From the NCBI RefSeq assembly GCF_010365055.1, contig NZ_JAAFHA010000002.1:1-64000 (forward strand): 64,000 nucleotides of DNA. The letters are read 5' to 3'. Below, in pieces: positions 9,924 through 52,845 of this stretch; position 1 is the stretch's first letter, and every line of letters begins with the position of its first letter. This DNA is from Rhodoferax sp. (GTDB taxonomy: Bacteria > Pseudomonadota > Gammaproteobacteria > Burkholderiales > Burkholderiaceae_C). A program made the position numbers and the translations under genes. The notes below the pieces were generated by a model, which did not search any database, was not told the origin of the DNA, and saw only the letters and a list, made by a program, of their open reading frames with translations.

Positions 9924-12464
9924 ATGACCGAAATAGCAATAAACCATCCTGTTGACCAGGCATGGGACCGTGTCATGGGTCAAATCCGCGCCGAAATGGC
10001 GGCGCGCGGGGTGCATGCGTCACGCACGGTGGTGCTGTTGCCGTACGCCCAACTGATGCAGGAAGCGCGCAGCGCCTGGCTGCGCGGGTTGGAGTGCGCC
10101 CAGCCTGGCGTCAACGCGCCCGCACATTTTTTGCCCCGTTTCGAGACCAGTATGAACTGGACCCGCAGCCTGGGTGGCTTTGAGCCCGGCCCGGACGATC
10201 TGCAGCTCGATTGCGCCCGCGATGTGCTGACGGCGGCTTCTTTGCTGGCCCGGGCGGGCTTGGCCCCGTATCAAAACCTGTTGGCGGCGCGCCTGATGGA
10301 AGCTGCCTGGAGTCTGGCCCGGCTTGCCGCTTCTGTTGCGCCCGCGGCGCGCGCGCAGTGGGGCCTGCGCCTGGACAGTCTGTTGGCCAGCGGCCTGGAC
10401 GCGCCGGTGCTGGCCATGGAGGGTGCGCTGGCACGCGTCGCGCTGGCCTGGGTGGCCAGCTCAAGTTATCCGTCCGATCGGCTGTTCGCGGCGCGCCCTG
10501 ACTTGCTGGTGGTGCTGCAAGGTTTCCAGAGCGAACCGCTGGCGCTGGCCTTGCAGCACGGCTTGGGTGAGCGGGTCTTCGTGTTGGCGCTGCAGCAGGA
10601 AGGCGCCCCAACAGGCGCTACCGCAGACGCGGACACGGTGGCGCTGCACGCGGCCCAGGACGCCGAAGACGAAGCGCAGCGCGCGGCTGCCTGCGTGCTG
10701 GCGCATCTGGCGGCGGGGCGCTCGCCGGTGGCGCTGGTGGCGCAGGATCGGGTGCTGACGCGCCGGGTCCGCGCCATGCTGGGAGAGCGCGGCGTGGCCG
10801 TGCGCGACGAAACCGGCTGGACGCTGTCTACCACCCGCGCCGCCGCCGCACTGATGAGTCTGATGCGCGCCTGCGCCTGGGACGCCAGCACCGACGGGGT
10901 GCTTGACTGGCTGAAAAACGCGCCGGCGTTTGACCCGCAGCTGGTGATGCAGGCCGAGGCCGGTTGGCGCCGCGGCGCGGTGCGCGAGTGGCGCGCGGTG
11001 CCGCTCGGTGACGCCTTGCAGCGCCCGGTCCAGGCGCTGCGCGACAGTCTGCAATCCGGGCGGCCGCTGGTGCGCTGGCTGGTCGATCTGCGCGCCGTGT
11101 TGCAAAGCGCGGGCCAATGGACGGGCTTGACGCAAGACGCTGCCGGGCAAGCGGTGCTGCAGGCCCTGCGCTTGCATGAGGGCGCGCATACCGAGTTTGC
11201 GGATGTGGCCGTGTCCATGAGTCAGAGCGAGTTCACGGCGTGGGTCAGCCAGGCGTTGGAGGCGGCCAGTTTTTTGCCAGAACATCCGGAGAAATCAGCG
11301 CCGGGTCAGGTCGTGATCCTGCCCTTGAGCCAGCTACTGGGTCGCCCGCTGGCGGCGGTGGTGCTGCCTGGCTGCGACGACGTGCGCTTGCCGATGTCAC
11401 CCGAACCGACCGGCCCGTGGACCCCAACCCAACGCGCGCTGCTCGGTCTGCCCGCGCGCGCGCAACTGGCCGCCGCCAGCCGCGCGGCCTGGCAGTACGC
11501 CTTGCAGTTTCCCTATGTGGACGTGTTGTGGCGCCAGAGCGAAGGCGGCGAGCACCTGATGGCCAGCGGCTTTGTGCAGGAACTGCAGCTCAGCCAGATC
11601 GGTGTCATGGCGCCGGATCCGCGGCTGCTGCGGCCGCTCACAGCGAAGCCTGGCGCCATGCCGCGCCCGAAGGGCGATGCGCTGGCCTTGACCCGGCTCT
11701 CCAGCACGGCTTATGAAGACCTGCGCCGCTGCCCGTACCGGTTCTTTGCCTTGCGCCAACTCAAGCTGCAAGAGTCGGATGAACTCGACACCGAACTTGG
11801 CAAGCGCGACTTCGGCAACTGGCTGCACACCGTGCTCAAGCTCTTTCATGAAGCATTAAACGAGTCTCCAGCCCCCGATTTTGTTGGGCGAGTAGCTCTG
11901 ATTAACAGAGCGGCTGAACAGGCGACAGCGGCGCTGGGTTTGTCCAGCAGCGAATTTCTGCCGTTCGCCGCCGCCTGGCCGCGGGTGCGCGCGGGCTACC
12001 TGGAGTGGCTGGCCGGGCACGAGGCCAGCGGCGCCGCCTTTGTTGCCGCCGAGCGCTGGCGGGAAACCGCGCTCGGCCACCTGACCCTGGTGGGCAAGAT
12101 TGACCGTATCGATCGCCTGCAGGACGGCAGCGCCCTGGTGATCGACTACAAAACCGAGCCGCGTGCCAGCACCGCCCAGCGCATCAAGGACGCGCCGGAA
12201 GACACCCAACTCGCGTTTTATGCCGCGCTGCTGGGTGATGACACCCTGGCGGCGGCTTATGTGAATGTGGGTGAAAAAGACGGCACCAAAACGTACGAGC
12301 AGTCCGACGTGGTGGCCTTGCGCGACCTGCTGCTGGCGGGGATTGCCACGGACATGGCGCGGATTGCCGATGGTGCGCCGATGGCGGCGATGGGGGAGGG
12401 CAAGGCGTGCGAGTTTTGCGCTGCGCGGGGGATGTGTCGGAAAGATTTTTGGGATTTGGCGTGA
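9924..12464 (+). CDS. addB: AddB-like PD-(D/E)XK nuclease of a RecBCD/AddAB-type complex
   Basis: An 846-residue protein, shorter than Bacillus AddB. The N-terminal part looks like a degenerate helicase domain without a clear P-loop. The C-terminal nuclease carries the catalytic core VIDYKTE and the four cysteines of an AddB-type iron-sulfur fold: C603 (RRCPYRFF) and C829-x2-C832-x5-C838. With the downstream AddA-like protein it would resect double-strand DNA ends for recombination. A copy of the dispersed repeat is carried in frame at 11864-11906. The family name rests on architecture and on the neighbour. Confidence 0.8.
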   Translation: MTEIAINHPVDQAWDRVMGQIRAEMAARGVHASRTVVLLPYAQLMQEARSAWLRGLECAQPGVNAPAHFLPRFETSMNWTRSLGGFEPGPDDLQLDCARDVLTAASLLARAGLAPYQNLLAARLMEAAWSLARLAASVAPAARAQWGLRLDSLLASGLDAPVLAMEGALARVALAWVASSSYPSDRLFAARPDLLVVLQGFQSEPLALALQHGLGERVFVLALQQEGAPTGATADADTVALHAAQDAEDEAQRAAACVLAHLAAGRSPVALVAQDRVLTRRVRAMLGERGVAVRDETGWTLSTTRAAAALMSLMRACAWDASTDGVLDWLKNAPAFDPQLVMQAEAGWRRGAVREWRAVPLGDALQRPVQALRDSLQSGRPLVRWLVDLRAVLQSAGQWTGLTQDAAGQAVLQALRLHEGAHTEFADVAVSMSQSEFTAWVSQALEAASFLPEHPEKSAPGQVVILPLSQLLGRPLAAVVLPGCDDVRLPMSPEPTGPWTPTQRALLGLPARAQLAAASRAAWQYALQFPYVDVLWRQSEGGEHLMASGFVQELQLSQIGVMAPDPRLLRPLTAKPGAMPRPKGDALALTRLSSTAYEDLRRCPYRFFALRQLKLQESDELDTELGKRDFGNWLHTVLKLFHEALNESPAPDFVGRVALINRAAEQATAALGLSSSEFLPFAAAWPRVRAGYLEWLAGHEASGAAFVAAERWRETALGHLTLVGKIDRIDRLQDGSALVIDYKTEPRASTAQRIKDAPEDTQLAFYAALLGDDTLAAAYVNVGEKDGTKTYEQSDVVALRDLLLAGIATDMARIADGAPMAAMGEGKACEFCAARGMCRKDFWDLA
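11864..11906 (+). repeat. dispersed AGCTAT repeat, copy A (inside addB)
   Basis: GTCTCCAGCCCCCG, a spacer, GGGCGAGTAGCTCTGATTA: same order and spacing as the intergenic copies. It is read through in frame as SPAPDFVGRVAL and sits between the AddB cysteine and nuclease core regions. Confidence 0.6.
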
Positions 12465-12484
12465 CTGTATTTTTTTGTGATCTT

Positions 12485-12886
12485 TCCCCCACTCACTCCC
12501 CCGACCCCTCTCTCGCCCCGCCGGGCGAAAGAGGGGGGCTTCATGTGGCCGCGTTTTTTAAGGCGGGAACTTTACGCTTCACGGCGCGCTGGCCTCAAAG
12601 TGAAGGCAGAACAGCGACCGGTCGCTCTAGCCAAATTCGGCGTCGCAGCAGCTCGCCTGCCCTGGATTTCTCGGGGAACCACCCACCAGCCGCCCAATCA
12701 GAGCAAGCGCTGCCTCAACGCCAATTGGCCTCAAGCGGCTTGCAGCAAATCGAAAGCCCGCCCATTCAGTTTGATGGCAACGCGCCCCTGTGTACCTTTT
12801 TCCCACCTTCAAAGACGCGGCCACATGTGGCTGTTAGCTCCCTTTCCGCCCCGGCGGGGGTGGAGAGGGTTGGGGTGAGGGGGGGA
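12485..12886. repeat. 0.4-kb element bounded by long imperfect inverted repeats
   Basis: The left arm (12485-12561) and right arm (12808-12886) are imperfect reverse complements over about 75 bp. The pairing includes a perfect 13-bp block (CATGTGGCCGCGT at 12542 and its complement at 12815) and a CCCCACTCACTCC-like versus GGGGTGAGGGGG block at the outer edges. Each arm also holds a local GC hairpin. The interior (about 250 bp) has no recognisable reading frame. It fills the gap between addB and addA and looks like a MITE or a composite of REP units. Confidence 0.65.
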
Positions 12887-12986
12887 ATACAACGCATAAA
12901 AATCAAGAACGTCGTAAGTAACCGGGTCAATGGATCAAGCCATGCAGACCAAATTGCATCGGAACCATGCAAAGGCGACCCAAAAA

Positions 12987-15900
12987 ATGACTAGTCCTCA
13001 ACCCGCCCCTGCCTACGAGCACAACGGCCAGCTCATCAGCGCCGAGGCTTTCTACGCAATTGCCTGCGACCCGCGCCGCAGTGTCGCGGTGGAGGCTTGC
13101 GCCGGGGCCGGCAAGACCTGGATGCTGGTGTCGCGCATCGTGCGCGCTCTGCTCGACGGGGTGGATGCCCAGACGGGCGAGCTGCGGGTGCAGCCGCATG
13201 AGATTTTGGCCATCACCTTCACCAAGCGGGCGGCCAGCGAGATGCGCGAGCGGCTGTACCAATGGCTGGCGGAGTTTGCCGTGGCCGACCACGCCACCCT
13301 GCGCCAGGAACTCAAGCTGCGTGGCGTTTTAGATAAAAACGAGCTCCAGCCCCCGTCCCTATTGCCTGAGCAGCTATCAAAGTTGTATCAAAATATCTTG
13401 CGCAGCGGGCGCCAGGTGCAGGTGCGCACTTTCCATAGCTGGTTTGCCGCCTTGCTGCGCAGTGCGCCGCTGGCGGTTTTGCAACAGATGGAACTGCCGG
13501 CCAACTACCAGCTGCTCGAAGACGACGCGCCGGCCAAAGCCTTGGTCTGGCGGCGTTTTTATGCCGCGCTGTTGCGCCCGGCGCAAGCCCCGGTCGAGGG
13601 CGCCGAGTGGGGTGGTGGTGGGCCAGATGATTCATCCGGTGTGACGCTGCAGTTTGATTACGAGGCGGTGGTGTTTGACTACGGTCGCGCGCAGACCGAC
13701 AAAGCCCTGCAAACCGCGCTCGACAAGCGCACTGAATTTGCCCTGGCCGATGCGCAAGGGGTGGTACTGCGCTCCGTGTTGCCGTTTGGCAGGCAATTCC
13801 CCGAGTTTGCTGGCTTAGGCACGCCTGATGATTTTTTGCGCGACCAGCCGCAGCGCTGGCAAATCCTGCTGGCTGCGGCACGCGCCCTGGGCGGCGCCAG
13901 TGCCAAGACGTTTTCTGCCAAAGGAGTGGCGCTTGAGATGGCGCTCTCGACCGGTGATCTGTCGGCCGCGTTTGCCGCCTTGCTGACCGACAAGGACGCG
14001 CCGCGCAAGTTCAGCGAGAAGATTGCCGGTATTGAGGCCGTGCGTGAGGCCCAGGACCTGGTGCTGCGCCTGCTGGCGGCCCGCCTGCAGCACGCGGCTT
14101 GGGTCTACCAGCAACGCATGGCGCGCCTGACCCGGGCGCTTTTGATAGAGTTCGCGGCCCTCAAGCGTGAGCACGGCTGGGTCGACATGAACGACGTGGA
14201 GCGCGCCGCGCTGGTGATGCTCAGTGACCCGGTGCTTTGCGGCTGGGTGCAGGAGCGGCTCGACGCGCGCATCAAACACCTGCTGATCGACGAGTTTCAG
14301 GACACCAACCCGCTGCAGTGGCAGGCGCTCAAGTCGTGGCTCAGCGGCTACGCCGGCGCCGGCGGCGGTCCCAGCGGTGGCGCGGGCGCCACGGCGCCCC
14401 GTGTGTTCATCGTGGGGGACCCCAAGCAGAGCATTTACCGCTTTCGCCGCGCCGAGCCGCAAGTGTTCAAGGCGGCCAAAGCCTTTGTGCGCGACGGTTT
14501 GAACGGCGACCTGCTGAGTTGCGACCACACCCGGCGCAACGCCACCGGGGTCATCGCCGTCGTGAACACCGTCATGACGCAGGCGGCACGGGCCGATGGC
14601 TACGAGGGGTTCCGGGCGCATACCACCAGCGCCTCCGAGCTGGGACTGGTCTGCAAGCTGCCACCGATTGCTAGGCCAGAGCGTCTGGCGGGGGCCGCAT
14701 CCAGCGGCGATGAGACCGATGGGTGCGGGACGGCCAGAGCCCAGTGGCGCGACAGCCTGAGCACCCCGCGCGAACTGCCGGAGGAAGCCCTGCGCACCCT
14801 GGAGGCGCGTCAGGCGGCGCACTGGATCGCGCAGCAGTTGGCCAACGCCGAAACGCCGGGGCCAAGCCTGCAGGCCGCTGACGTGATTGTGCTGTCACGC
14901 AAGCGCGCGGGCTTGCTGCCCTTGCAGTTGGAGTTGCGCAAGTTGCACATCGCGGCCCAGATTGGCGAGAAAACCAATCTCATTGACTGCTGCGAAGTGC
15001 AGGACCTGGTGGCCCTGCTGGACGTGCTGGTGTCGCCCCGGCACGACCTGTCGCTGGCGCGGGTACTCAAGTCGCCCCTGTTTGACATGCCCGACGCGGC
15101 GCTGGTGCAACTGGCGCAAGGGGTGCGGGCGCAGTCGCCCGCCGATTTGTCCTGGTTTGATGTGCTGCAAAAATCAGAGCTATCTACGCAGGACGGACGG
15201 GGGCTGGCGGCTTGTTTGATGCGATGGAAAGGCTGGCTGGATCAATTGCCACCGCACGATGCGCTGCAGGCCATTTACTTTGACGGCGACGTGCTGGCCC
15301 GCTTTGCGGCGGCAGCACCGGCCAGTCAGCGCGACGCCGTGCTGGCCAACCTGACAGCCTTGCTGGGGATGTCGCTGCAGCTCGACGGCGGACGGTTTGC
15401 GACGCCTTATGCGTTTGTGCGCGCCCTTAAAAGTGGCGGCCTGCTGGCGCCCGCTGCCGTCAACCCGCAGGCCGTGCGCCTGCTCACCGTGCACGGCGCC
15501 AAAGGGCTGGAGGCGCAGGCGGTGCTCTTGCTTGACACCGACACGCCCGAGCGAAACGCCGACACCATGGGCGTGCTGATTGACTGGCCGGGGGAGGCCG
15601 CGTGGCCGAGCAAATTTGTGTTTCTGGCCAGTGAGAGCCAGCCGCCCGCCTGCGCCGTGCCCACGCTGGAGGCCGAGCGGCTGGAGCGCCAACGCGAAGA
15701 ACTCAATGCCCTGTACGTCGCGCTAACGCGGGCGCGCCGCACGCTGGCTATTTCCAGCATTGCGCCCTACCGCAGCGCCGAGCGCAGCTGGTGGCAGCGC
15801 CTGAGCGACTTGGCCCAGCCGGCGGCGCCCGCAGTTGCAGCCGACTTGGCGGCGGCGTCTCCCGATGCGGTGCCGGTGACCGTGGCGGATGCTGTGTTTT

Positions 15901-16484
15901 ATATAAAAGAACTGCCTGTAGCCCCCGTGGAATATACGCAAGAAGCTATAAAAAAAGAAGCATATTTCGGCGAGGTTCTTAGCGCCGATGACGTTGATGC
16001 TGACGCTGACGCGCTCAGCGCCCGCCTGGGCAAGGCCATGCACCGGCTGCTGGAATGGGGCGACGCGACGCTAGCCAATACGGCCGCCTGTGCGCGTGAA
16101 TTTGCGCTCACGCCCGAGCAGGGCGCGCAGGCCGCCGCCATGGCCGCGCGTATCCTGCAGGGCGAGGGTGCCTGGGCCTGGGACAATACAGGGCTGGCTT
16201 GGCAGGGCAATGAGATTGAGCTGCTGTACCAGGGCCAATGCCTGCGCCTGGATCGCCTGGTGCAGCGCACGCACGCACAGCACGCGGGCCACTGGTGGGT
16301 GCTGGACTACAAGTCGGCCCCGGCGCCCCATGAACAACCGGAACTGCTGGCGCAGCTGCGCGACTACCGGGCGGCCGTGCAGGCCATTTATCCGGATGCG
16401 GTGGTCAAGGCCGCATTTCTGACCGCGCACGGCGCGTTGATCGAAGTGAATGAAGTGAATGAAGTGAATTGGAACAGTGCATGA
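12987..16484 (+). CDS. addA: AddA-like UvrD-family helicase-nuclease
   Basis: About 1165 residues from the ATG at 12987; the frame opens at 12930. This is a superfamily 1 helicase with Walker A AGAGKT (residues about 39-44), motif II LLIDEFQDTNPLQW, motif III VGDPKQSIYRFRRAEP, motif V LTVHGAKGLEA and motif VI ALYVALTRARRTL. A C-terminal PD-(D/E)XK nuclease has WVLDYKSAP. This is the AddA architecture, acting with AddB in double-strand break repair. Three dispersed-repeat copies lie in the frame. The stop overlaps the next start as ATGA. Confidence 0.86.
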   Translation: MTSPQPAPAYEHNGQLISAEAFYAIACDPRRSVAVEACAGAGKTWMLVSRIVRALLDGVDAQTGELRVQPHEILAITFTKRAASEMRERLYQWLAEFAVADHATLRQELKLRGVLDKNELQPPSLLPEQLSKLYQNILRSGRQVQVRTFHSWFAALLRSAPLAVLQQMELPANYQLLEDDAPAKALVWRRFYAALLRPAQAPVEGAEWGGGGPDDSSGVTLQFDYEAVVFDYGRAQTDKALQTALDKRTEFALADAQGVVLRSVLPFGRQFPEFAGLGTPDDFLRDQPQRWQILLAAARALGGASAKTFSAKGVALEMALSTGDLSAAFAALLTDKDAPRKFSEKIAGIEAVREAQDLVLRLLAARLQHAAWVYQQRMARLTRALLIEFAALKREHGWVDMNDVERAALVMLSDPVLCGWVQERLDARIKHLLIDEFQDTNPLQWQALKSWLSGYAGAGGGPSGGAGATAPRVFIVGDPKQSIYRFRRAEPQVFKAAKAFVRDGLNGDLLSCDHTRRNATGVIAVVNTVMTQAARADGYEGFRAHTTSASELGLVCKLPPIARPERLAGAASSGDETDGCGTARAQWRDSLSTPRELPEEALRTLEARQAAHWIAQQLANAETPGPSLQAADVIVLSRKRAGLLPLQLELRKLHIAAQIGEKTNLIDCCEVQDLVALLDVLVSPRHDLSLARVLKSPLFDMPDAALVQLAQGVRAQSPADLSWFDVLQKSELSTQDGRGLAACLMRWKGWLDQLPPHDALQAIYFDGDVLARFAAAAPASQRDAVLANLTALLGMSLQLDGGRFATPYAFVRALKSGGLLAPAAVNPQAVRLLTVHGAKGLEAQAVLLLDTDTPERNADTMGVLIDWPGEAAWPSKFVFLASESQPPACAVPTLEAERLERQREELNALYVALTRARRTLAISSIAPYRSAERSWWQRLSDLAQPAAPAVAADLAAASPDAVPVTVADAVFYIKELPVAPVEYTQEAIKKEAYFGEVLSADDVDADADALSARLGKAMHRLLEWGDATLANTAACAREFALTPEQGAQAAAMAARILQGEGAWAWDNTGLAWQGNEIELLYQGQCLRLDRLVQRTHAQHAGHWWVLDYKSAPAPHEQPELLAQLRDYRAAVQAIYPDAVVKAAFLTAHGALIEVNEVNEVNWNSA
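13330..13385 (+). repeat. dispersed AGCTAT repeat, copy B (inside addA)
   Basis: GCTCCAGCCCCCGTCCCTAT, then GCCTGAGCAGCTATCAAAG. It is translated in frame as ELQPPSLLPEQLSKL, shifted by one base relative to copies A, D and L. Confidence 0.65.
15168..15210 (-). repeat. dispersed AGCTAT repeat, copy C (inside addA, inverted)
   Basis: Read on the minus strand: CGCCAGCCCCCGTCCGTCC, then GCGTAGATAGCTCTGATTTTT. On the coding strand it gives KSELSTQDGRGLAA, which resembles the peptide KKELLTHSARGLEA from copy E in trmJ. Confidence 0.65.
15912..15958 (+). repeat. dispersed AGCTAT repeat, copy D (inside addA)
   Basis: GCCTGTAGCCCCCGTGGAAT, then ACGCAAGAAGCTATAAAAAA, very close to intergenic copy J. 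Encodes LPVAPVEYTQEAIKKE in an AT-richer patch between the helicase and the nuclease domains. Confidence 0.75.
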
Positions 16485-22734: not shown

Positions 22735-23598
22735 ATGCAAACACGTTTCATCCTGATCAACACCAGTCACGCCGGCAATGTCGGGGCTGCTGCCCGCGCC
22801 ATGAAAACCATGGGTTTTTCTGACATGGTGCTGGTGGCCCCGCGCTGGGCCAATGTGCTCAACCGTGAAGAAACCATTCAACGCGCCAGTGGCGCCCTGG
22901 ATGTATTGAAAAACGCCCGCATCGTGGCCACGCTCGATGAGGCACTGGACGGCATGACGCATTTGTGTGCCACGGCCATGACCCCACGTGACTTTGGCCC
23001 GCCCACGGTGACGCCGCGCGAGCATTTTGAATCACTCATAAAAAAAGAGCTGCTCACGCATAGTGCACGCGGGCTAGAGGCTGATTTAGCTTGTAAGAAT
23101 AAAATTCTGCCGGCCACGGCTGAAACTGATCAAGCATCCGCTGGCGCGCCGCCACAGCGTGGCATGGGCTTCCTGTTTGGCTGCGAGCGCTTTGGCATGC
23201 GCAATGAAGATGTCTACCGCTGCCACGTGGCACTGAGCATTCCGAGCGACCCCCAATTTGGTTCGCTCAATCTGGGGGCGGCGGTGCAGGTGATTGCCTA
23301 CGAATGGCGGCTGGCTTTGGGTGCATTTGCGGTTCAAGCGGCGACCCTTGAGCCGGTGCTGGCCGACGCGGCCCAAGTGGCGGGCATGCTCGGGCATCTG
23401 GAGCAGTCGCTGCAGGCCATTGGCTTTCTGGACCCGCAAGCGCCCAAAAAATTGATGCCGCGGCTCAATCAGTTGTTCAACCGGGCCGGTGTCACGCAGG
23501 AAGAGGTTCACATTCTGCGCGGCATTGCCAAAGCGATATTGCAGAACGCGGCGCGGCCCGACGCCCTGGCGCCTGCGACGGCTTGCGTCCAAGGCTAG
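22735..23598 (+). CDS. trmJ: tRNA (cytidine/uridine-32 2'-O)-methyltransferase TrmJ
   Basis: A 287-residue SPOUT-family methyltransferase that modifies position 32 of tRNA using S-adenosylmethionine. Visible are the N-terminal RFILINTSHAGNVGAAARAMKTMGF, the central LFGCERFGMRNEDVYRCH and SLNLGAAVQVIAYEWR, which together form the trefoil-knot cofactor site. I start at the ATG at 22735 because homologues begin MQTRF. A dispersed repeat (copy E) is inserted in frame in the variable loop before the knot. Confidence 0.88.
   Translation: MQTRFILINTSHAGNVGAAARAMKTMGFSDMVLVAPRWANVLNREETIQRASGALDVLKNARIVATLDEALDGMTHLCATAMTPRDFGPPTVTPREHFESLIKKELLTHSARGLEADLACKNKILPATAETDQASAGAPPQRGMGFLFGCERFGMRNEDVYRCHVALSIPSDPQFGSLNLGAAVQVIAYEWRLALGAFAVQAATLEPVLADAAQVAGMLGHLEQSLQAIGFLDPQAPKKLMPRLNQLFNRAGVTQEEVHILRGIAKAILQNAARPDALAPATACVQG
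23038..23090 (-). repeat. dispersed AGCTAT repeat, copy E (inside trmJ, inverted)
   Basis: Minus-strand reading: AATCAGCCTCTAGCCCGCGT, then TATGCGTGAGCAGCTC and a T-run. It is a near-complete match to the intergenic copies. In trmJ it is translated as KKELLTHSARGLEAD, about residues 103-117, in a region predicted to be a loop. Confidence 0.8.
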
Positions 23599-24381: not shown

Positions 24382-24389
24382 ACTCTATC

Positions 24390-24445
24390 TGCTATTTATT
24401 AAATAGCTATCTGCGCAATATATACGGGGGCTAGAAGGCTTTTTT
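24390..24445 (-). repeat. dispersed AGCTAT repeat, copy F (intergenic, cysE-mogA)
   Basis: Read on the minus strand: GCCTTCTAGCCCCCGTATAT, then TTGCGCAGATAGCTATTTAA. The end carries an extra local palindrome (GCTATTTA/TAAATAGC). It occupies almost the whole gap between the convergent cysE and mogA genes and could act as a bidirectional transcript end. Confidence 0.8.
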
Positions 24446-24446
24446 A

Positions 24447-25052
24447 TCAAGAAAATGTGCGAATCGCTGCCTTGGGCCTAAAGGCCTGGCACACGGCTGC
24501 ATCGGTCTCCAGGTACGGCCCGCCAATCAGGTCGATGCAATAGGGCACAGCCGCAAAAATGCCGGCCATCAAAAGCGCGCCATCGCTGCCGCGCAGACCT
24601 TCGAGTGTTTCCGCAATTGCCTTGGGTTGACCCGGCAGGTTGATGATCAGGGTTTGCTTGCGAATCACCGCCACTTGCCGCGACAAAATGGCCGTTGGCA
24701 CAAAACGCAGGCTGATTTGGCGCATTTGTTCGCCAAAGCCCGGCATTTCTTTGTGCGCCACGGCCAGCGTTGCCTCGGGCGTGACGTCGCGCAGTGCCGG
24801 GCCGGTGCCGCCGGTGGTCAATACCAAGGCGCAGCCGGCATCCACCAATTCAATCAGCGTGGCGCTGATGGTGGCTTCTTCATCAGGAATCAGGCGCGGC
24901 TCAAATTGCAGCGGGTTCTTCAAGGCGCGGGTCAACCAGTCTTGCAGTGCGGGCAGGCCTTTGTCGACATAAACACCGCCGCTGGCGCGGTCGCTGATGG
25001 AGACGATGCCGATCTTGATGACGTCATAGGGCGAAGAAGCTGCCGCGTTCAT
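24447..25052 (-). CDS. mogA: molybdopterin adenylyltransferase MogA
   Basis: A 201-residue enzyme that activates molybdopterin with AMP before insertion of molybdate or tungstate. The family motifs are visible: IGIVSISDRASGGVYVDKG at the start, the central TTGGTGPALRDVTPEAT and the late LPGQPKAIAETLEGL. It is relevant here because the same window carries tup, mod and AOR genes. The start overlaps the darP stop by 4 bp (ATGA). Confidence 0.9.
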   Translation of the reverse strand: MNAAASSPYDVIKIGIVSISDRASGGVYVDKGLPALQDWLTRALKNPLQFEPRLIPDEEATISATLIELVDAGCALVLTTGGTGPALRDVTPEATLAVAHKEMPGFGEQMRQISLRFVPTAILSRQVAVIRKQTLIINLPGQPKAIAETLEGLRGSDGALLMAGIFAAVPYCIDLIGGPYLETDAAVCQAFRPKAAIRTFS

Positions 25053-29803: not shown

Positions 29804-31048
29804 TCAATGTTCCAGCAGCTTGGCGGCCAGACCTTGCGCGCAGGCAAAGGCGCTGGCCCAGGCCCACTGGAAGTTGTAGCCGCCCAGCCAGCCGGTCACG
29901 TCCACCACTTCGCCGATGAAATACAGGCCGGGTTGCTTCGACTCCATCGTTTGCGAGGACAAATCCCGGGTGTCCACGCCGCCTGCGGTGACCTCGGCCT
30001 TTTTATAGGCTTCGGTGCCGGTCGGGGTGAGTTCCCAGCGTGTGAGGCGCTCGGCCAGGGCTGCCAGCGCCTTGTCGCTGGCCTCGTTGATCGGACGTTG
30101 CCCGTCGTGGCCGGCGCTGGCGCCCGCTTGCACCCAGGCGTCGGCCAGACGCGAGGGCACCAGATGGGCCAGCTCATTGGCGATCAGTTTGCGCGAGCTG
30201 GCCTTGGCGTGCATGAGCGCCTGCAGCACCTCGGTGCCGGGTGCCAGGTTGATCCGGATCGGCATGCCAGTCTGCCAGTAGCTCGAAATCTGAAGCACGG
30301 CCGGACCGCTCAGGCCGCGGTGCGTGAACAACAGGTCTTCCAGGAAACTGATTTTTGTTTTCTTGCTGCCAGTTTCTATTTGTACCGGCAGCGACAGGCC
30401 GGACAGGGCGGCGTAGGGGGCCCAGGCTTCACCGTCAAAAGTCAGCGGCACCAGGGCGGGACGCGGCTCGATCAGGCGCAGACCAAACTGGCGGGCGATG
30501 CGGTAGCCCAGATCGGTGGCGCCAATTTTGGGAATCGACAGGCCGCCGGTGGCGATGACGACCGCAGCACACCGGATGGTGCCCCGGTCACTCTCTATTT
30601 CATAGCTACTTATGCTTGATGCATCAGGGCTAGAGGCTGAAAACACTATATTTTTTAAACTGCAGGGCTGCCAGCGCGTGACGTGACCGGCGTCGCACTC
30701 GGCCAGCAACATCTGGATGATGTCCTCGGACGACCGGTCGCAAAACAGCTGTCCCTTGTGCTTTTCATGGAAGGCGATGCCATGGCGCTGCAGCAAGTCG
30801 GTGAACTGGCGTGGCGTGTAGCTTGAGAGGGCCGAGCGGCAAAAATTCGGGTTGTTGCTCAGAAAGTTGGCTGGGGTGGTGTCGCGGTTGGTGAAGTTGC
30901 AGCGTCCACCGCCGGAGATGCGGATTTTTTCGGCGACTTTGTCACTGTGGTCGATCACCAGCACCTTGAGGCCCAGTTGGCCCGCCACGCCAGCACAGAA
31001 CAGGCCTGCGGCGCCAGCGCCCACCACCACGACGTCAAAATTTTGCAT
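29804..31048 (-). CDS. HI0933/BaiN-family NAD(P)/FAD-dependent oxidoreductase
   Basis: A 414-residue flavoprotein: VVVVGAGAAGLFCAGVAGQLG (FAD Rossmann), IRISGGGRCNFTNRD (family signature), VVIATGGLSIPKIGATDLGY and a C-terminal GLYFIGEVVDVTGWLGGYNFQWAWASAF. The physiological substrate is unknown; BaiN-like enzymes are proposed for steroid or other reductions in some bacteria, but this cannot be transferred safely. Copy G of the dispersed repeat is read in frame in the variable middle region. Confidence 0.85.
   Translation of the reverse strand: MQNFDVVVVGAGAAGLFCAGVAGQLGLKVLVIDHSDKVAEKIRISGGGRCNFTNRDTTPANFLSNNPNFCRSALSSYTPRQFTDLLQRHGIAFHEKHKGQLFCDRSSEDIIQMLLAECDAGHVTRWQPCSLKNIVFSASSPDASSISSYEIESDRGTIRCAAVVIATGGLSIPKIGATDLGYRIARQFGLRLIEPRPALVPLTFDGEAWAPYAALSGLSLPVQIETGSKKTKISFLEDLLFTHRGLSGPAVLQISSYWQTGMPIRINLAPGTEVLQALMHAKASSRKLIANELAHLVPSRLADAWVQAGASAGHDGQRPINEASDKALAALAERLTRWELTPTGTEAYKKAEVTAGGVDTRDLSSQTMESKQPGLYFIGEVVDVTGWLGGYNFQWAWASAFACAQGLAAKLLEH
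30596..30650 (-). repeat. dispersed AGCTAT repeat, copy G (inside the flavoprotein gene)
   Basis: In the coding direction: TCAGCCTCTAGCCCTGATGC, then AAGCATAAGTAGCTATGAAA. It is an excellent match to the core and is translated as SASSPDASSISSYEI, between two conserved blocks of the flavoprotein. Confidence 0.82.
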
Positions 31049-31978: not shown

Positions 31979-32889
31979 GCAGTCGTCCTCGTTGCTTCCA
32001 CTAGACGCACGATGTGTGCCACCTGCAGGGCGATCGGCGTTGGCACCGGTTGCTCACCGTCCAGCACCGCTTGTATCCATGCGGCAGTGCTGGCCACGTC
32101 AGGCGCTGGCAGGCCGGGAACGCTGGCCAGTGTGCCGCCTTGCGCCTCTTGCACCCGCGTGACCTGGCCGCGGGCGATGGCGTCCATGGCCGGTGTGCGC
32201 CGGGGGTCGGCGACCGGCTCGCCCTCGGTGCCGCGCAGCAGCAGGGCCTGGGCCTGCACCAGTTGAAACGTGGCTGTCATGGCCGCTGCGTACTCGGGAT
32301 GGGTGTAGCTGCTGACGATCAGCGCCGGGCCGTCGCAGGGGTTCATCAGCTTGACCAGACTGTGCGCCGGGTTGCGCAAGCCCACGACGCGGCGCACGTC
32401 CAGCAGGCGCTGCAGGCCGGGGCACAAGAGCGCGGTCGGGATAAACTGCAATTCGCCATCTGCTATTGAATCAATAGCTTCTTTTGTAGGCACCGCAAGG
32501 GCTGCGAGTACATTTTGTGCTGAAACCCGGGTGCTCTCGGTGCTGGCACCGTGCATCACCACGGGCAGGCCCTCGCGTGCCAGCAGCAGCGCCAGCAAGG
32601 GCGTGAGCACCGGCAGCTTGCGCGCACCGTTGTAGCTCGGCAGCACCACGACCGTGCGGCCGTGGCTGGGAATTGGCTGCAGCCGGGCGGCGGTGGCGTC
32701 CAGAAAGCCCGCCATCTCCTGCGGCGTTTCGCCCTTGATGCGCATGGCCAGGCAAAACGCGCCAATTTCCAGCTCGGTGACGGCTCCGTCGAGCACCTGG
32801 CCAAACAGATCTGCCGCCTGCTCACGCGTGAGTGCGCGCGCGCCGTCCTTGCCACGCCCAATGATCTTGATGAAGTTGCCAATGCCCAT
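31975..32889 (-). CDS. ybiB: TrpD2/YbiB-family DNA-binding protein
   Basis: A 304-residue relative of anthranilate phosphoribosyltransferase (TrpD). E. coli YbiB keeps the fold but binds nucleic acid and is linked to the SOS response. Visible are the N-terminal helical bundle (LTREQAADLFGQVLDGAVTELEIGAFCLAMRIKGET) and the modified nucleotide loop VVLPSYNGARKLPVLTPLLALLLA in place of the TrpD glycine-rich GTGGD loop. It carries a weaker copy (H) of the dispersed repeat in frame. Confidence 0.85.
   Translation of the reverse strand: MGIGNFIKIIGRGKDGARALTREQAADLFGQVLDGAVTELEIGAFCLAMRIKGETPQEMAGFLDATAARLQPIPSHGRTVVVLPSYNGARKLPVLTPLLALLLAREGLPVVMHGASTESTRVSAQNVLAALAVPTKEAIDSIADGELQFIPTALLCPGLQRLLDVRRVVGLRNPAHSLVKLMNPCDGPALIVSSYTHPEYAAAMTATFQLVQAQALLLRGTEGEPVADPRRTPAMDAIARGQVTRVQEAQGGTLASVPGLPAPDVASTAAWIQAVLDGEQPVPTPIALQVAHIVRLVEATRTTA
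32460..32508 (-). repeat. dispersed AGCTAT repeat, copy H (inside ybiB, diverged)
   Basis: In the coding direction: CTCGCAGCCCTTGCGGTGCC, then AAAGAAGCTATTGATTCAAT. It keeps the order of blocks but is more diverged. The peptide LAALAVPTKEAIDSI resembles that of copy D in addA (PVEYTQEAIKKE). Confidence 0.45.
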
Positions 32890-34352: not shown

Positions 34353-35222
34353 TCAACCCTGGGCGCAAGGCCGCGCCGGGTCACTGCACCATTCGCTCCA
34401 GCTGCCCGCATAGAGCGCGCTGCGGCCCAGCCCCGCGACTTCCATCGCAAGGAGGTTGGGCACGGCGCTCACGCCGCTGCCACAGTGGTGCACCACCGTC
34501 GCCGGGTCGCGACCGGCGAGCAGGGCTTCAAACTCGGCACGCAGCTGATCTGCCCGCTTGAAGTGCCCGTTGGCGTCCAGGTTGAGGCTGAAGGGCCGGT
34601 TCAGGGCGCCGGGGATGTGGCCGGCCACCGGGTCGAGCGGCTCGACTTCACCGCGAAAGCGCGGTGCGCCGCGCGCATCGATGACGGTTTGCGTCGGTCG
34701 TCCCAATTGTTTTGCTACTGTTTCGGTAGTTACTAACGTGGTGTTGGCGGGGGCTGGGGCGTAATTTGATCTAAGTGTTTTGGCCTCGGACCGCTCGCAG
34801 GGGCCGCTCTGCGCGCCGCCGCCACTGGCTTGCCACGCCTGCCAGCCGCCATCGAGCACCGCCACGTTGTCCTGCCCTACCCATTTCAGCAGCCACCACA
34901 AGCGCCCGCAGTAATTGACGCCCTGGCGGTCGTAGACCACGGCCTGCATGCCGTTGTCAAAGCCGATGCTGCCGAGCCAGGCGGCAAAGCTTTCACGTGA
35001 GGGCAGCGGATGGCGCCCGCCCGAGGCCGCGTCCGCTGCGCCCTTGGCACTCAAGTGCCGGTCCAGGTCAGCGCGCACGGCACCCGGGATGTGCGCCTGG
35101 CTGTACTGGGCATCGCCCGCCTCAGGCTGCATCAGCTCAAAGCTGCAGTCAAACACCATCGCCGGCTGTCCGCTGGCCAGCAAGGTCTGCAGTTGGGGGA
35201 CGGAGATCAGGGTCTGGTACAT
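34353..35222 (-). CDS. sseA: 3-mercaptopyruvate/thiosulfate sulfurtransferase
   Basis: A 289-residue tandem rhodanese. The C-terminal domain carries the active-site loop CGSGVSA, close to the CGSGVTA loop typical of mercaptopyruvate sulfurtransferase rather than thiosulfate rhodanese. The linker holds DGGWQAW and VIDARGAPRFRGEVEPLDPVAGHIPGA. It transfers sulfane sulfur to acceptors such as cyanide or thiols. A diverged dispersed repeat (copy I) is read in frame in the interdomain region. A REP-like repeat lies just upstream of the start. Confidence 0.88.
   Translation of the reverse strand: MYQTLISVPQLQTLLASGQPAMVFDCSFELMQPEAGDAQYSQAHIPGAVRADLDRHLSAKGAADAASGGRHPLPSRESFAAWLGSIGFDNGMQAVVYDRQGVNYCGRLWWLLKWVGQDNVAVLDGGWQAWQASGGGAQSGPCERSEAKTLRSNYAPAPANTTLVTTETVAKQLGRPTQTVIDARGAPRFRGEVEPLDPVAGHIPGALNRPFSLNLDANGHFKRADQLRAEFEALLAGRDPATVVHHCGSGVSAVPNLLAMEVAGLGRSALYAGSWSEWCSDPARPCAQG
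34710..34762 (-). repeat. dispersed AGCTAT repeat, copy I (inside sseA, diverged)
   Basis: In the coding direction: GCCCCAGCCCCCGCC, then GTTAGTAACTACCGAAACAG and GTAGCAAAA. The best-kept part is the CCAGCCCCCG block. The peptide APAPANTTLVTTETVAK lies in the linker between the rhodanese domains, where insertions are tolerated. Confidence 0.45.
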
Positions 35223-36240: not shown

Positions 36241-36252
36241 AGCGTGATGTTT

Positions 36253-36315
36253 TAAAATAGGGCTCTAGCCCCCGTGTAATGGGCGCAAGTAGCTATAAAA
36301 ATAATAGTAACTATC
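36253..36315 (+). repeat. dispersed AGCTAT repeat, copy J (intergenic)
   Basis: GGGCTCTAGCCCCCGTGTAA, then TGGGCGCAAGTAGCTATAAA and a further ATAATAGTAACTAT end. It fills the 74-bp gap between the Rieske oxygenase stop and the exporter start, on the opposite strand to those genes. Confidence 0.85.
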
Positions 36316-38894: not shown

Positions 38895-38914
38895 TTATAA
38901 TAAATATTAGGTAA

Positions 38915-38962
38915 ATTAGCCCCTGGCCCTTATGTAATAAGCGCTAATAGCTATTAAAAACA
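38915..38962 (+). repeat. dispersed AGCTAT repeat, copy K (intergenic, ispA-dxs)
   Basis: TTAGCCCCTGGCCCTTATGTAATAAGCGC followed by TAATAGCTATTAAAAAC, ending 6 bp before the dxs start codon. It therefore forms the dxs leader and may contain or replace its ribosome binding site: no strong GGAGG-like sequence is seen in front of dxs. Confidence 0.8.
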
Positions 38963-38968
38963 GAGCAT

Positions 38969-40867
38969 ATGTCACATAATTCGTATCCCTTGCTGCACAC
39001 CATCAATGACCCCGCTGACCTGCGGCTCGTGCCGCGCGCACAGTTGGGCGCGCTGGCCGACGAGTTGCGGGCTTACTTGCTTGACAGCGTTGCCAAAACC
39101 GGGGGGCACCTGAGCTCCAACCTGGGCACGGTTGAGCTGACAGTGGCGTTGCACTATGTGTTCAACACGCCGCATGACCGGGTGGTGTGGGATGTGGGCC
39201 ACCAGACCTACCCCCACAAAATTTTGACCGGTCGGCGCGAGCGCATGGCCACGCTGCGTCAGTTCGGTGGTTTGAGTGGTTTCCCGCAGCGCGGTGAGAG
39301 TGAATACGACGACTTTGGCACCGCGCATTCCAGCACGTCGATATCAGCCGCTTTGGGCATGGCGCTGGCGGCCAAAATAAAGGGTGAAGATCGCCACGCC
39401 ATTGCCGTGATTGGCGACGGCGCGCTGACCGCCGGTATGGCGTTTGAAGCGCTCAACAACGCCGGGGTCGCCGACTGCAACTTGCTGGTCATCCTGAACG
39501 ACAACGACATGAGCATCAGCCCACCGGTGGGCGCGCTCAACAGGCACCTGGCCAAGCTCATGAGCGGCCAGTTTTATGCTGCCGCCAAAAATGTGGGCAA
39601 GACCGTACTCAAAGGGGCGCCGCCGCTGTTTGAGCTGGCCAAGCGCCTGGAAGAAAGCGCCAAAGGCATGGTGGTGCCAGCGACCCTGTTCGAGAAATTT
39701 GGCTTCAATTACATCGGCCCGATCGATGGCCATGACCTCGACGCCTTGGTCCCCACGCTGGAGAACATCAAGCACCTCAAAGGTCCGCAGTTTTTGCATG
39801 TGGTGACCAAAAAAGGGCAGGGCTACAAGCTGGCCGAAGCCGACCCGGTGGCCTACCACGGCCCCGGCAAGTTTGACCCGGCGGTTGGTCTGCAGGCGCC
39901 TGCTACCAGCCCGAAGCAAACCTTCACCCAGGTGTTTGGTCAGTGGCTGTGCGACATGGCGGCCTTTGATTCGCGGCTGGTGGGCATCACGCCCGCCATG
40001 CGCGAGGGTTCCGGTATGGTGGAGTTTGAGCAGCGATTTCCGCAGCGTTTCTTTGACGTGGGCATTGCCGAGCAGCATGCGGTGACCTTTGCCGCGGGAC
40101 TGGCCTGTGAGGGTTTGAAGCCGGTGGTGGCGATTTATTCCACCTTTTTGCAGCGCGGCTACGACCAGCTGATCCACGACGTGGCGATTCAAAACCTGCC
40201 AGTGGTCTTTGCGCTGGATCGCGCTGGCCTGGTGGGGGCCGATGGGGCCACCCATGCCGGCGCTTATGACATCCCATTTTTGCGCTGCATTCCCAACGTC
40301 AGCGTGGCCTGTCCGGCCGATGAGAACGAATGCCGGCAGTTGCTCAGCACTGCGTTTTCGCAGAATAGCCCGGTAGCCGTGCGTTATCCGCGCGGTGCCG
40401 GTGCCGGTACAGCCGTCCAGGCGGGCTTGGACCCCTTGCCGTTTGGCCAAGGTGAAATCCGGCGCATGGGCAGCGGTGTCGCTATTTTGGCCTTTGGCAC
40501 GCTCCTGTACCCGGCGTTGCAGGCGGCTGAAAAGCTCAACGCCACGGTGGTCAACATGCGCTGGGCCAAACCGCTGGATGTGGCGTTGCTGCTACAGGTG
40601 GCCGCCGGCCATGACGCGCTGGTGACAGTGGAAGAGGGCGCCATCATGGGTGGCGCTGGCAGTGCGGTGCTCGAAGCCCTGCACGCAGCGGGCGTTATCA
40701 AGCCTGTGCTGCAACTGGGCCTGCGCGATGAGTTCATTGAACATGGCGACCCGGCCAAACTGCTGGCGCTGCAGGGGCTCGACGCGGTCGGTATTCAGGC
40801 CTCTGTTGCCCAGCGTTTTGGGCCGCTGCTGCTGCCGGCGCGCCCGGCGCTCAAAGCCGTCGCCTGA
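38969..40867 (+). CDS. dxs: 1-deoxy-D-xylulose-5-phosphate synthase
   Basis: A 632-residue thiamine-diphosphate enzyme joining pyruvate and glyceraldehyde 3-phosphate, the entry step of the MEP isoprenoid pathway. Visible are [21 protein letters not shown], the cofactor loop [20 protein letters not shown], and [17 protein letters not shown] with the catalytic Glu region. It works with ispA upstream. Its leader consists of repeat copy K. Confidence 0.95.
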
Positions 40868-42134: not shown

Positions 42135-42187
42135 GTCTGGACGACCAGGCCGCGCGCTTCGCGCACTGGTTGCTTTGATTCTTATTT

Positions 42188-42222
42188 TGTCCGATGACAT
42201 GTGCAATGCATGTCACCGGACA
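42188..42222 (+). terminator. probable terminator after dctP1
   Basis: TGTCCGATGACATG pairs with CATGTCACCGGACA across a short loop, followed by TTTCTGTTTTC. The stem is long and the tail T-rich, but the T-run is interrupted. Confidence 0.5.
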
Positions 42223-42285
42223 TTTCTGTTTTCGGACCATGACATCACAGCTGTGCTGACAACGGCACACAGTTGACGTCAAATA

Positions 42286-42339
42286 CCGTTCCTGGTGAGC
42301 TCGTCGAACCACCCCTTCGACAGGCTCAGGGCGAACGGG
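42286..42339. repeat. REP-type element (TTCGACAGGCTCAGGGCGAACGG family)
   Basis: CCGTTCCTGGTGAGCTCGTC, then GAACCACCCCTTCGACAGGC, then TCAGGGCGAACGG: a paired-arm intergenic repeat type that is widespread in proteobacterial genomes. Confidence 0.75.
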
Positions 42340-42522
42340 TTCATCAGTCGGGGCAGTCAGCCCCGGTGAGCTCCAAGTTGACAGCTTGTTGACAGCAAAA
42401 GGAGGGAAAACCCCCGCACCGCTTGTCGCGCATCTTTCTACAATTTTCATTGACTCTCATCGGTCGTCGCTGTGCTTACCGGCACGTCGGCATACTTTCT
42501 CAATACTCCAGGAGTGAACCTT

Positions 42523-49021: not shown

Positions 49022-49866
49022 AAACCGTAGAATATTTTAAGTCTTTTAGGCCTCTGGCCCTCGTGCATTATGCGCTTACAGCTACTATTTTCGTAGCGTC
49101 CGTGAGTTTGCCTGTGAGGGCTCAATCGCCATCGATTGTGGTGGCCTCCACCACCTCGACCGAGCAGTCGGGTCTGTTTGCGTACCTGCTGCCTGAGTTC
49201 AAAAGGGCCAGCGGCATCGACGTGAAAGTGGTGGCACTGGGCACTGGCCAGGCCATCGACCTGGGCCGCCGGGGTGATGCCGATGTGCTGTTTGTGCATG
49301 ACAAGGTGGCTGAAGAAAAAGCGGTGGCTGAGGGCTTTGCCGTCAAGCGCTTGGAAGTGATGTACAACGACTTTGTGCTGGTTGGACCCGCCAGCGATCC
49401 CATCAAAGTCAAAGGTAACGATGTGGTCGAAGCGCTCAAAAAGATCTCCGCCGCCAATGGCGCCTTCATCTCGCGCGGCGACAAGAGCGGCACCCACGCG
49501 GCTGAACTGCGCTTCTGGAAGATGGCCGATCTGGCCGACAAGCCAGGTAGCGGCTACCAGTCTTGCGGCTGCGGTATGGGCCCGGCGCTCAATATGGCCT
49601 CCAGCAGCAACGCCTATGCGCTGACCGACCGTGGCACCTGGCTCAATTTCAAGAACCGGGGTGACCTGAAAGTGCTGGTGGAGGGTGACAAGCGTTTGTT
49701 CAACCAATACGGCGTGATGCTGGTCAATCCGGCGAAACACCCGCACGTCAAGGCGGCTGACGGCCAGAAATTTGTCGACTGGCTGACATCACCCGCCGGG
49801 CAAGGCGTGATCGCCAGCTACAAGATTGGCGGCGAGCAACTGTTTTTCCCGAATGCGGTGAAGTGA
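49018..49866 (+). CDS. tupA: tungstate-binding protein TupA
   Basis: A 282-residue periplasmic protein. After the signal peptide the mature part begins with the anion-binding motif SIVVASTTSTEQSGLF, the TTST pattern specific to TupA. The late part has AYALTDRGTWL, also typical. A run SCGCGMGP with two cysteines lies before it. The signal peptide itself (residues 8-25) is encoded by a copy of the dispersed repeat. It overlaps tupC (ATGA). TupA binds tungstate very tightly and delivers it to TupBC. Confidence 0.92.
   Translation: MKTVEYFKSFRPLALVHYALTATIFVASVSLPVRAQSPSIVVASTTSTEQSGLFAYLLPEFKRASGIDVKVVALGTGQAIDLGRRGDADVLFVHDKVAEEKAVAEGFAVKRLEVMYNDFVLVGPASDPIKVKGNDVVEALKKISAANGAFISRGDKSGTHAAELRFWKMADLADKPGSGYQSCGCGMGPALNMASSSNAYALTDRGTWLNFKNRGDLKVLVEGDKRLFNQYGVMLVNPAKHPHVKAADGQKFVDWLTSPAGQGVIASYKIGGEQLFFPNAVK
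49040..49098 (+). repeat. dispersed AGCTAT repeat, copy L (in the tupA signal peptide)
   Basis: TTTTAGGCCTCTGGCCCTCG, then TTATGCGCTTACAGCTACTA and a TTTTCGTAG end, a close match to intergenic copy M. It encodes the hydrophobic stretch RPLALVHYALTATIFVA of the signal peptide. Confidence 0.82.
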
Positions 49867-49877
49867 GGGCAGTTTAA

Positions 49878-49898: not shown

Positions 49899-49907
49899 CG
49901 ATGCTGC

Positions 49908-50846: not shown

Positions 50847-50863
50847 GGGTGAACTGTAGTGCT

Positions 50864-52037: not shown

Positions 52038-52718
52038 ATGTCAAAGACCCCGAAAATCGCCGTTTTGCTCGCGGGCTGCGGCCACCTTGATGGCTCTGAG
52101 GTGCGCGAGGCGGTGCTGACCCTGCTGGCGCTGGATCAGCATGGCGCGGCGTTTCAGTGCATCGCGCCCAACGCGCCGCAATTCCATGTGATCAACCACA
52201 TCACCGGTGAGCCGGTGGCAGGTGCGCAGCGCAACATTCTGGAAGAGTCCAGCCGCATCGCCCGCTTGGGTCAGTGTCTGGATTTGGCCAAGGCCAAGGT
52301 GGCGGACTATGACGCGCTGGTGATGCCGGGTGGCTACGGTGTGGCCAAAAACCATTGCTCGTTTGCCTTCAAGGGCGCAGATGCCGAAGTACGCCCTGAC
52401 GTGGCGGCCTTTGTGCGTGGCTTTTTTGACGCCAAAAAACCGGTGGGGGCCATCTGTATTGCCCCTGCACTGGTGGCGCTGGCCTTGCGTCAAGCGGATG
52501 ACAGCGCGACGCTGACCCTGGGGAACGATGCGGGTGTCGCCGCCGCCATGCAGCAGTTGGGCCAGAAGCACCAGAACACGCCAAACGCGCGCGAGATTGT
52601 GATTGATGAGGCGCACAAGCTCATCACCACGCCCGCCTACATGTTTGACGACGCGCGCCTGAGCGACGTGTTTGTCGGTATCGAGCGCTGTGTGGCTGAG
52701 GTGCTCAAGCGCATCTGA
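52038..52718 (+). CDS. elbB: glyoxalase-like isoprenoid biosynthesis protein ElbB
   Basis: A 226-residue DJ-1/PfpI-family protein: IAVLLAGCGHLDGSEVREAVLTLLALDQHGA, ALVMPGGYGVAKNHCSFAFKGADAEV and the nucleophile elbow GAICIAPAL with its cysteine. ElbB of E. coli has weak glyoxalase activity and was linked to isoprenoid synthesis, but its physiological role is uncertain. It stands alone with its own ribosome binding site (GGAGAAC). Repeat copy M follows downstream. Confidence 0.88.
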   Translation: MSKTPKIAVLLAGCGHLDGSEVREAVLTLLALDQHGAAFQCIAPNAPQFHVINHITGEPVAGAQRNILEESSRIARLGQCLDLAKAKVADYDALVMPGGYGVAKNHCSFAFKGADAEVRPDVAAFVRGFFDAKKPVGAICIAPALVALALRQADDSATLTLGNDAGVAAAMQQLGQKHQNTPNAREIVIDEAHKLITTPAYMFDDARLSDVFVGIERCVAEVLKRI

Positions 52719-52789
52719 GGTCCAGTGCATCATGCTCCTGGCTCCAGAGCCTCCTGCATGAATGCGCGTTACTCGATTTATTTATAGTA

Positions 52790-52845
52790 AATCGGCCTCT
52801 AGCCCGCATGTAATAAGCGTTTGTAGCTATTAATTTGATATTTGT
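52790..52845 (+). repeat. dispersed AGCTAT repeat, copy M (intergenic, elbB-modC)
   Basis: ATCGGCCTCTAGCCCGCATG, then TAATAAGCGTTTGTAGCTAT and TAATTTGATA. It is one of the best-preserved copies. It lies between the convergent elbB and modC genes. Confidence 0.85.

Follow-up and report, generated by a model that had tools for sequence, protein, structure and literature searches.

To our knowledge, abundant DNA uptake signals are known from two bacterial families. The uptake signal sequence (USS) of the Pasteurellaceae measures about 30 bp when its AT-rich segments are included, and the receptor of the DNA uptake sequence (DUS) of the Neisseriaceae is ComP. Here we describe a motif of the Comamonadaceae that resembles both. 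Thirteen copies lie between genes and, in frame, inside genes in a 64,000-nucleotide stretch of a Rhodoferax sp. genome (contig NZ_JAAFHA010000002.1, positions 1 to 64,000; hereafter the window). The motif is found across the family, forms dialects and, at the tested sites, rewrites coding sequence in place. A role as an uptake signal is our best inference.

In Haemophilus influenzae, 65% of USS lie in coding sequence (PMC1626085, PMC7811141), and a gap test, the same as that applied here, finds no insertion origin for those in genes (PMC1626085). Uptake signals occur in both orientations, and they are reported to be scarcer than expected in newly acquired DNA (PMC7811141). Like the Pasteurellaceae USS, the present motif is dispersed and abundant, combines a core with AT-rich segments and has subclade variants (PMC1626085, PMC7811141), and its in-gene copies are, here mostly, not insertions by the gap test (PMC1626085). 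The USS, however, consists of a 9-bp core with adjoining AT-rich segments, occurs in another class, is unrelated in sequence and has a proven uptake bias, whereas some intergenic copies of the present motif came with added DNA. Neisseria DUS occupy permissive locations, and an origin by recombination has been reported (PMC2397512); in the Neisseriaceae they form dialects around an invariant part, and some family members have no DUS (PMC3630211). Abundance, dialects, family members lacking the motif and permissive sites are all shared with the motif described here (PMC3630211, PMC2397512), but the DUS has 10-12 bp and its uptake is shown, whereas our motif occupies 69 columns and its uptake is presumed. 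Known uptake signals are thus short and this one is not; shortness is a property of the known cases rather than of the function.

Three kinds of repeats also invite comparison. Rickettsia palindromic elements, the parallel drawn in an earlier sequence-only reading of the window, are likewise read in frame in unrelated genes (PMC10969869). They are in-frame insertions of about 150 bp, whereas a gap of this kind is absent at 15 of 17 in-gene sites examined here and a palindromic structure finds no support; the parallel does not extend to most copies in genes. With repetitive extragenic palindromic (REP) sequences and their associated tyrosine transposases (RAYT), the motif shares a high copy number and a RAYT gene with adjoining copies, and REPs too occur in frame in open reading frames (ORFs) (PMC6006769, PMC3733652). 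It lacks, however, the GTAG/GTGG foot and hairpin, and RAYT is also present in motif-poor genomes. Finally, the beta-proteobacterial repeat element (BRE) is dispersed in Comamonadaceae with some copies in coding sequence, but is described as 75-91 bp long, 69% GC in Bordetella, often tandem and present in at most 29 copies (PMC3110155); this comparison is by description only.

Definition and abundance of the motif

With an iterative 56-column weight matrix applied to both strands, 13 window sites scored higher (36.5-65.1) than anything in 10 Markov shuffles; the next-best site reached 5.6. These are exactly the 13 copies listed in the sequence-only reading, with no others. The length of about 42 bp given there proved too short: the motif is about 60-69 bp long and occupies hundreds of sites in both orientations. 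Over 69 columns, the window together with fetched stretches yielded 119 distinct copies, the reversed control reaching at most 11.6; the consensus is ataTTTanatcAAATngGCCTCTAGCCCcCGTgnAatatGCGtaAGtAGCTATtAAattaaTAGcaant. The alignment of these copies is free of gaps, but they had been selected by an ungapped matrix. After correction for sample size, the 13 window copies carry 50 bits of information and 27 other copies, mostly not pattern-chosen, 49 bits; all 119, most of which were pattern-chosen, give 58 bits.

In the whole genome (4.33 Mb, 188 contigs), a pattern search allowing up to three mismatches returned 92 near-consensus copies (43 on the plus and 49 on the minus strand) against none for the backwards control. 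The motif is thus more frequent than expected by chance, and 92 is a lower bound. The total is probably about 400-900 copies: by our own arithmetic, window density gives about 880 per genome, whereas an estimate from copies that happened to lie beside others in the fetched stretches gives about 400. Rfam gave no match to the motif at the gathering score. No paper evidently devoted to it was found among those listed from the open-access literature, so that absence from print is not shown; short motif strings proved unspecific there.

Two peculiarities of individual positions were observed. In columns 12-15 and 54-58, AT words switch blockwise, reading either AAAT/AAAA or ATTT/TTTT, and adjacent columns are strongly correlated. 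At L026:1544-1630, a motif copy continues into an array of GATTTA hexamers close to a contig end.

Distribution and dialects

The motif is specific to the Comamonadaceae, occurs in genus dialects and is hardly found elsewhere in the order. The search of Comamonadaceae genomes proposed in the sequence-only reading retrieved this genome's dialect from 60 of 141 genera, with matches in at least 75 of the 200 genomes; in an order sample of 250, a single match each came from four genomes of other families. Holders among the matches listed are Rhodoferax, Polaromonas, Acidovorax, Simplicispira, Giesbergeria, Diaphorobacter, Hylemonella, Extensimonas and Comamonas kerstersii. Two family genomes picked for having no match contained 0 copies in 20 kb each. 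The exact pattern was found in at least 116 stretches of genome contigs and in one IMG/VR viral contig. This only exact match among viral contigs (L354:1164-1197) may be host flank of a provirus.

Within the genus, the 60 genomes fall into 31 with at least 70 scored matches (motif-rich), 27 with at most 16 (motif-poor) and 2 between; the counts, made with an own-dialect model, strict filters and a ceiling of 84 matches, are lower bounds. In a tree of the helicases from 13 genomes, rich and poor are separated by one branch with weak support (75/76).

Six other genera, in a search seeded with this genome's matrix, share the AGCTAT word and the AAA tract (4-23 copies each) and differ in the motif centre. 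The consensus is AtTGCTCAAgCAGCTAt in one of them (12 copies) and GCGCttgcC.g.CAAGCGCaAGCAGCTAT in another (23 copies), the corresponding consensus of this genome being AatatGCGtaAGtAGCTAT. In some other dialects the centre forms an inverted repeat, GCGCttg..CAAGCGC, which is broken in this genome's dialect.

Copies inside genes

At the tested sites, the motif inside genes was mostly written by substitutions in existing sequence, since the same gene stretch is present without a comparable gap in motif-lacking relatives. Among the 17 in-gene sites with at least one such relative, 15 showed no consistent shortfall (median within 21 bases). This count took in the regions around helicase, ComEC and RAYT genes; the comparison of in-gene and intergenic sites to which it belongs omits genomes scoring 8-20 at a site as well as 3 of 27 sites where no genome lacked the motif. 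In the window, net length in motif-poor genomes stayed within 14 bases at 11847 (n = 8), 13325 (n = 7), 15160 (n = 8), 30586 (n = 10), 32458 (n = 7) and 34710 (n = 7), the sole exception being -27 in G007 at 30586.

The helicase gene shows how this comes about. In 12 relatives (6 rich, 6 poor), the copies at 13325 and 15160 fall on residues common to all, with at most two missing. Poor genomes encode these residues by other codons (matrix scores of -23 to -55), rich genomes by codons that build the motif (26.7 to 65.5). Helicases of eight other families have 18-24 residues at the 13325 site and 24-30 at the 15160 site, compared with 24 here; G082 was left out because the frame read is not the gene. 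Graded states also exist: at 30586, the rich genome G053 scores 13.4 and the poor genome G016 scores 13.0.

Two sites are exceptional in that the genes with the motif are longer, by 48 and by about 63 bases. An in-frame gain, of 16 codons, is best exemplified by the in-gene copy L372:8974-9042, where motif-poor orthologues are 48 bases shorter in 6 of 6 cases. At 15897, motif-lacking genomes were 36-64 bases shorter in 6 of 6 cases of the wider site count. This site is not decisive because the linker in which it lies differs in length between motif-bearing genomes as well, and because the linker of motif-poor G055 is just 9-12 bases shorter than that of motif-bearing G048, G052 and G053, in a comparison that does not tell spanning from split matches. 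Orthologue alignment, suggested earlier as a means to find 14-16 extra residues, thus revealed a gain of 16 codons at L372:8974, a longer but not decisive difference at 15897 and no consistent one at the other 15 sites.

Coding signal on both flanks placed 35 of the 119 copies in genes, of which 28 occupy two of the six frames in this pattern-chosen sample; an open frame across the copy is part of the definition of an in-gene copy. Stretches taken by position in 13 motif-bearing family genomes, in four of which the stretch is the orthologue of the window, contained 119 copies; 53 of these fell in genes, and the order of frames differed.

Copies in intergenic spacers

At the tested sites, some copies in spacers came with a gain of about 50-140 bp of DNA. 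Seven intergenic sites could be compared: three had gained DNA, one was collinear and three were mixed (L377:8438, L389:14945 and 38902 of the window). In the window, DNA was gained with the copy at 36244..36312 (+; position weight matrix (PWM) score 70.8), which fills its spacer; the 13 motif-lacking genomes compared all have a spacer shorter by 52-80 bases. Three of these (G048, G052, G053) are motif-rich and yet short at this site; therefore it was the lineage comprising this genome, G060 and G071 that gained about 78 bp, nearly all of it motif. Motif-lacking genomes were also shorter in 7 of 7 cases at L389:6051 (54-87 bases) and in 7 of 7 at L389:9296, upstream of a RAYT gene (99-137 bases). 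A purely in-place origin, with no tested copy inserted, was dropped on account of this gained DNA. The earlier proposal that the element spreads by insertion accordingly stands for these three spacers of seven and fails for most genes.

Behind the RAYT gene, the site L389:10102 is collinear, with differences of -4 to +8 across 10 genomes. Measured differently, it spans 80-86 bp in 9 of 10 poor and 84-86 bp in 10 of 11 rich genomes, the motif being present in 8 of 11 rich and 0 of 10 poor ones; G017 and G005 are not included (pattern not found; contig end), and the outliers are G014 (197 bp) and G009 (60 bp). In the genome of the window, the RAYT/Y1 transposase gene (L091:3416-4141, on contig C119), the longer of two Y1_Tnp genes, has one motif copy 50 bp upstream and another across its stop codon, and five other genomes carry a copy at the 3' end of the gene. 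RAYT orthologues occur in 22 of 23 relatives, including motif-poor ones. They have an end sequence of their own (AATTGGGGTCAGATTCCAATTA-like): of 21 printed loci inspected by eye, 19 show it on the downstream side and 11-12 on the upstream side. RAYT mobilisation was rejected as the cause of in-gene copies, given the presence of RAYT in motif-poor genomes, its own end sequence and the collinear 3' and in-gene sites; it may account for intergenic copies that came with added DNA.

Window copies and neighbouring features

As first described, nine window copies are inside ORFs and the other four are intergenic, and both orientations and several frames were confirmed. Eight of the nine have coding signal on both flanks; the ninth, 49033..49101 (+; PWM 68.1), lies within the first 28 codons of ORF 49018-49866. 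The host genes are ordinary, encoding a PD-(D/E)XK nuclease, a UvrD-type helicase, a SpoU methylase, an HI0933-like flavoprotein, a Glycos_trans_3N protein, a rhodanese and a PBP-like protein.

The nuclease gene 9924-12464 (PF12705), presumably AddB-like, carries the copy 11847..11915 (+; PWM 27.0), with a net length of 0 to -2 in 8 motif-poor genomes. Three copies fall in the helicase gene 12930-16484, which we take to be AddA-like. For 13325..13393 (+; PWM 56.9), the same residues are found in motif-free relatives and outgroups. The copy 15160..15228, in opposite orientation (-; PWM 39.1), shows a net length of 0 to -2 in 8 motif-poor genomes, and its residues are present in outgroups. The third, 15897..15965 (+; PWM 72.5), occupies a linker of variable length, where motif-poor genomes are 15-64 bases shorter (8 of 8). 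All three lie in weakly conserved stretches, with amino acid identities of 0.54, 0.61 and 0.47 against 0.75 elsewhere in six motif-poor orthologues.

Within the SpoU-type methylase gene 22717-23598 (+; PF00588), the copy 23030..23098 (-; PWM 65.6) has coding sequence on both flanks and is retained in G060 and G071, the site having no motif-poor comparison. The flavoprotein gene 29804-31048 (-; PF03486) contains 30586..30654 (-; PWM 63.0), where net length is +9 to -3 in nine motif-poor genomes besides G007. It is 0 to +1 in 7 motif-poor genomes for 32458..32526 (-; PWM 33.9) in the Glycos_trans_3N gene 31975-32889 (-; PF02885), and +7 to -14 in 7 for 34710..34778 (-; PWM 42.1) in the rhodanese-domain gene 34353-35222 (-; PF00581). 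The copy in the PBP-like gene is in its N-terminal part, which is signal-peptide-like by eye; the PF12849 match begins at residue 34.

Between genes, 24387..24455 (-; PWM 68.2) is situated where two gene ends converge, overlaps the last bases of ORF 24447-25052 and is retained in G060 and G071. The copy 38902..38970 (+; PWM 70.9) ends at the start codon of ORF 38969-40867, and motif-lacking genomes differ there by -47 to +74 bases, without consistent sign. The intergenic copy 52778..52846 (+) has the top score of the window (PWM 80.7).

Two further features were observed in the window. A second repeat at 35239-35360 consists of two tandem 61-bp units (GTTGGGGACAG...CTGTCCCACAA) that are 84% alike; further copies are scattered through many genomes of the genus, including motif-poor ones. 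It may be the BRE of PMC3110155. At 41026-42902, the adjacent ORFs 41040-42134 and 42472-43602 form an apparent tandem duplication, 78-82% alike over the listed blocks.

Conservation, secondary structure and strand order

All alignable window sites carry the motif in the two closest relatives (11 of 11 in G060, 10 of 10 in G071). For G060, G071, G048 and G052 respectively, the proportion of differences was 0.10, 0.13, 0.10 and 0.22 in columns of at least 1 bit, 0.24, 0.30, 0.27 and 0.32 in columns below 0.4 bit, and 0.11, 0.13, 0.20 and 0.24 in the flanks. Informative columns are thus held back relative to free columns and hardly relative to flanks.

A GCTAT/ATAGC hairpin can be drawn at the 3' side of many copies, with two compensated pairs among 13 copies. 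No compensated pair was found in 40 copies, and neither a covarying palindrome nor a stem above composition in 119. A conserved hairpin was therefore rejected, and the check for conserved secondary structure proposed in the sequence-only reading came out negative. Strand order in the closed genome G052 showed no polarity (26 plus, 27 minus; P 0.33).

Discussion

The explanation that we prefer, with a probability of roughly one half, is that this motif of the Comamonadaceae resembles an uptake signal because biased uptake of DNA, or a drive like it, has spread it; uptake is the presumed step. A receptor of the type IV pilus or competence machinery would prefer DNA that carries the motif, and recombination of such DNA into the chromosome would spread better matches and new copies, a molecular drive as argued for the H. 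influenzae USS and the Neisseria DUS. Lineages with another specificity, or none, would lack the motif. The content of about 50 bits far exceeds the 13-14 bits needed, by our own arithmetic, to mark 400-900 sites, which points to drive and not to selection site by site. Biased uptake is favoured because it is the known drive of this kind. Since Neisseria DUS are also reported to arise by recombination (PMC2397512), the mixed origin of the copies fits an uptake signal. Most traits of uptake signals are shared by the motif: its favourable points are the lack of a consistent shortfall at 15 of 17 in-gene sites, retention in close relatives with informative columns changing more slowly than free ones, permissive placement in the helicase, abundance and range, dialects, and a single match among IMG/VR viral contigs. 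More tentatively, the Comamonadaceae may possess a self-recognition or drive system with a target of about 60-70 bp and 50 bits, an undiscovered receptor and genus dialects, which would rewrite codons at hundreds of sites and also seed spacers. Such a target would be far longer than any uptake signal known to us.

Several observations weigh against biased uptake. The information content is far above that of known uptake signals, and some intergenic copies arrived with added DNA, which a mobile element would explain too. In G060 and G071, informative columns are not more conserved than flanks. Motif-rich genomes can lack a copy at a shared site (G053 at 11847, G019 at 15897, 3 of 11 behind the RAYT gene), and the closed genome G010 shows borderline strand clustering (28 plus, 41 minus; P 0.049). 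Across the 60 genus genomes, neither ComEC (56 genomes; 28 of 31 rich, 26 of 27 poor) nor ComP_DUS pilins (50 genomes; 22 of 31 rich, 26 of 27 poor) follow the motif, and no ComEC is seen in the draft of this genome. Moreover, the single match of the viral scan has no matched denominator.

Among the alternatives, a small mobile element (MITE-like, that is, resembling a miniature inverted-repeat transposable element, or REP-like, perhaps moved by the RAYT of contig C119) would insert between genes and yield in-gene copies as a by-product. The motif-filled gain of about 78 bp in one lineage at 36244 suits it, as do the 54-137 bases absent from motif-lacking genomes in 7 of 7 cases each at L389:6051 and L389:9296 and the copies that flank the RAYT gene here or mark its 3' end in five other genomes. 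Yet no insertion explains 15 of 17 in-gene sites that are collinear with protein residues kept, and the RAYT 3' site is collinear as well. As RAYT accompanies motif-poor genomes too, with an end sequence of its own, and the 119 copies share no covarying palindrome, we consider this explanation unlikely.

Improbable as well is a binding site for a chromosome-organising, segregation or nucleoid protein, selected at each site. In-place change and dialects would suit any recogniser that co-evolves with its site, and AT words present as either AAA or TTT are what a minor-groove reader might allow. The excess of information per site over the 13-14 bits required, the near absence of the motif from 27 of 60 genus genomes and a strand order without FtsK-type polarity in G052 and borderline in G010 speak against such a protein.

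Known Chi sites are short and polar. This, set beside the lack of strong polarity here, makes it a rather remote prospect that the motif drives its own spread by promoting recombination or repair of the DNA carrying it, with no role in uptake, even if such a drive would account for the excess information and the spread, and four copies do lie in the nuclease-helicase gene pair, though this is one locus. An RNA-level element (terminator, processing site or small RNA target) is very improbable: the two compensated pairs of the 3' hairpin in 13 copies vanish in 40, no stem exceeds composition in 119, copies lie on either strand inside genes, and Rfam has no match at its gathering score.

For the study of repeats, the results mean that in-frame repeats in genes need not be inserted elements; alignment of orthologues site by site settles the matter, and here the answers differ between genes and spacers. 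If the motif is an uptake signal, the Comamonadaceae would be a third family with abundant uptake signals, a large and environmental one, with a much longer motif, and the motif itself would provide a handle for finding the receptor. Motif-rich and motif-poor species within one genus would then allow the study of how such signals begin, change dialect and die.

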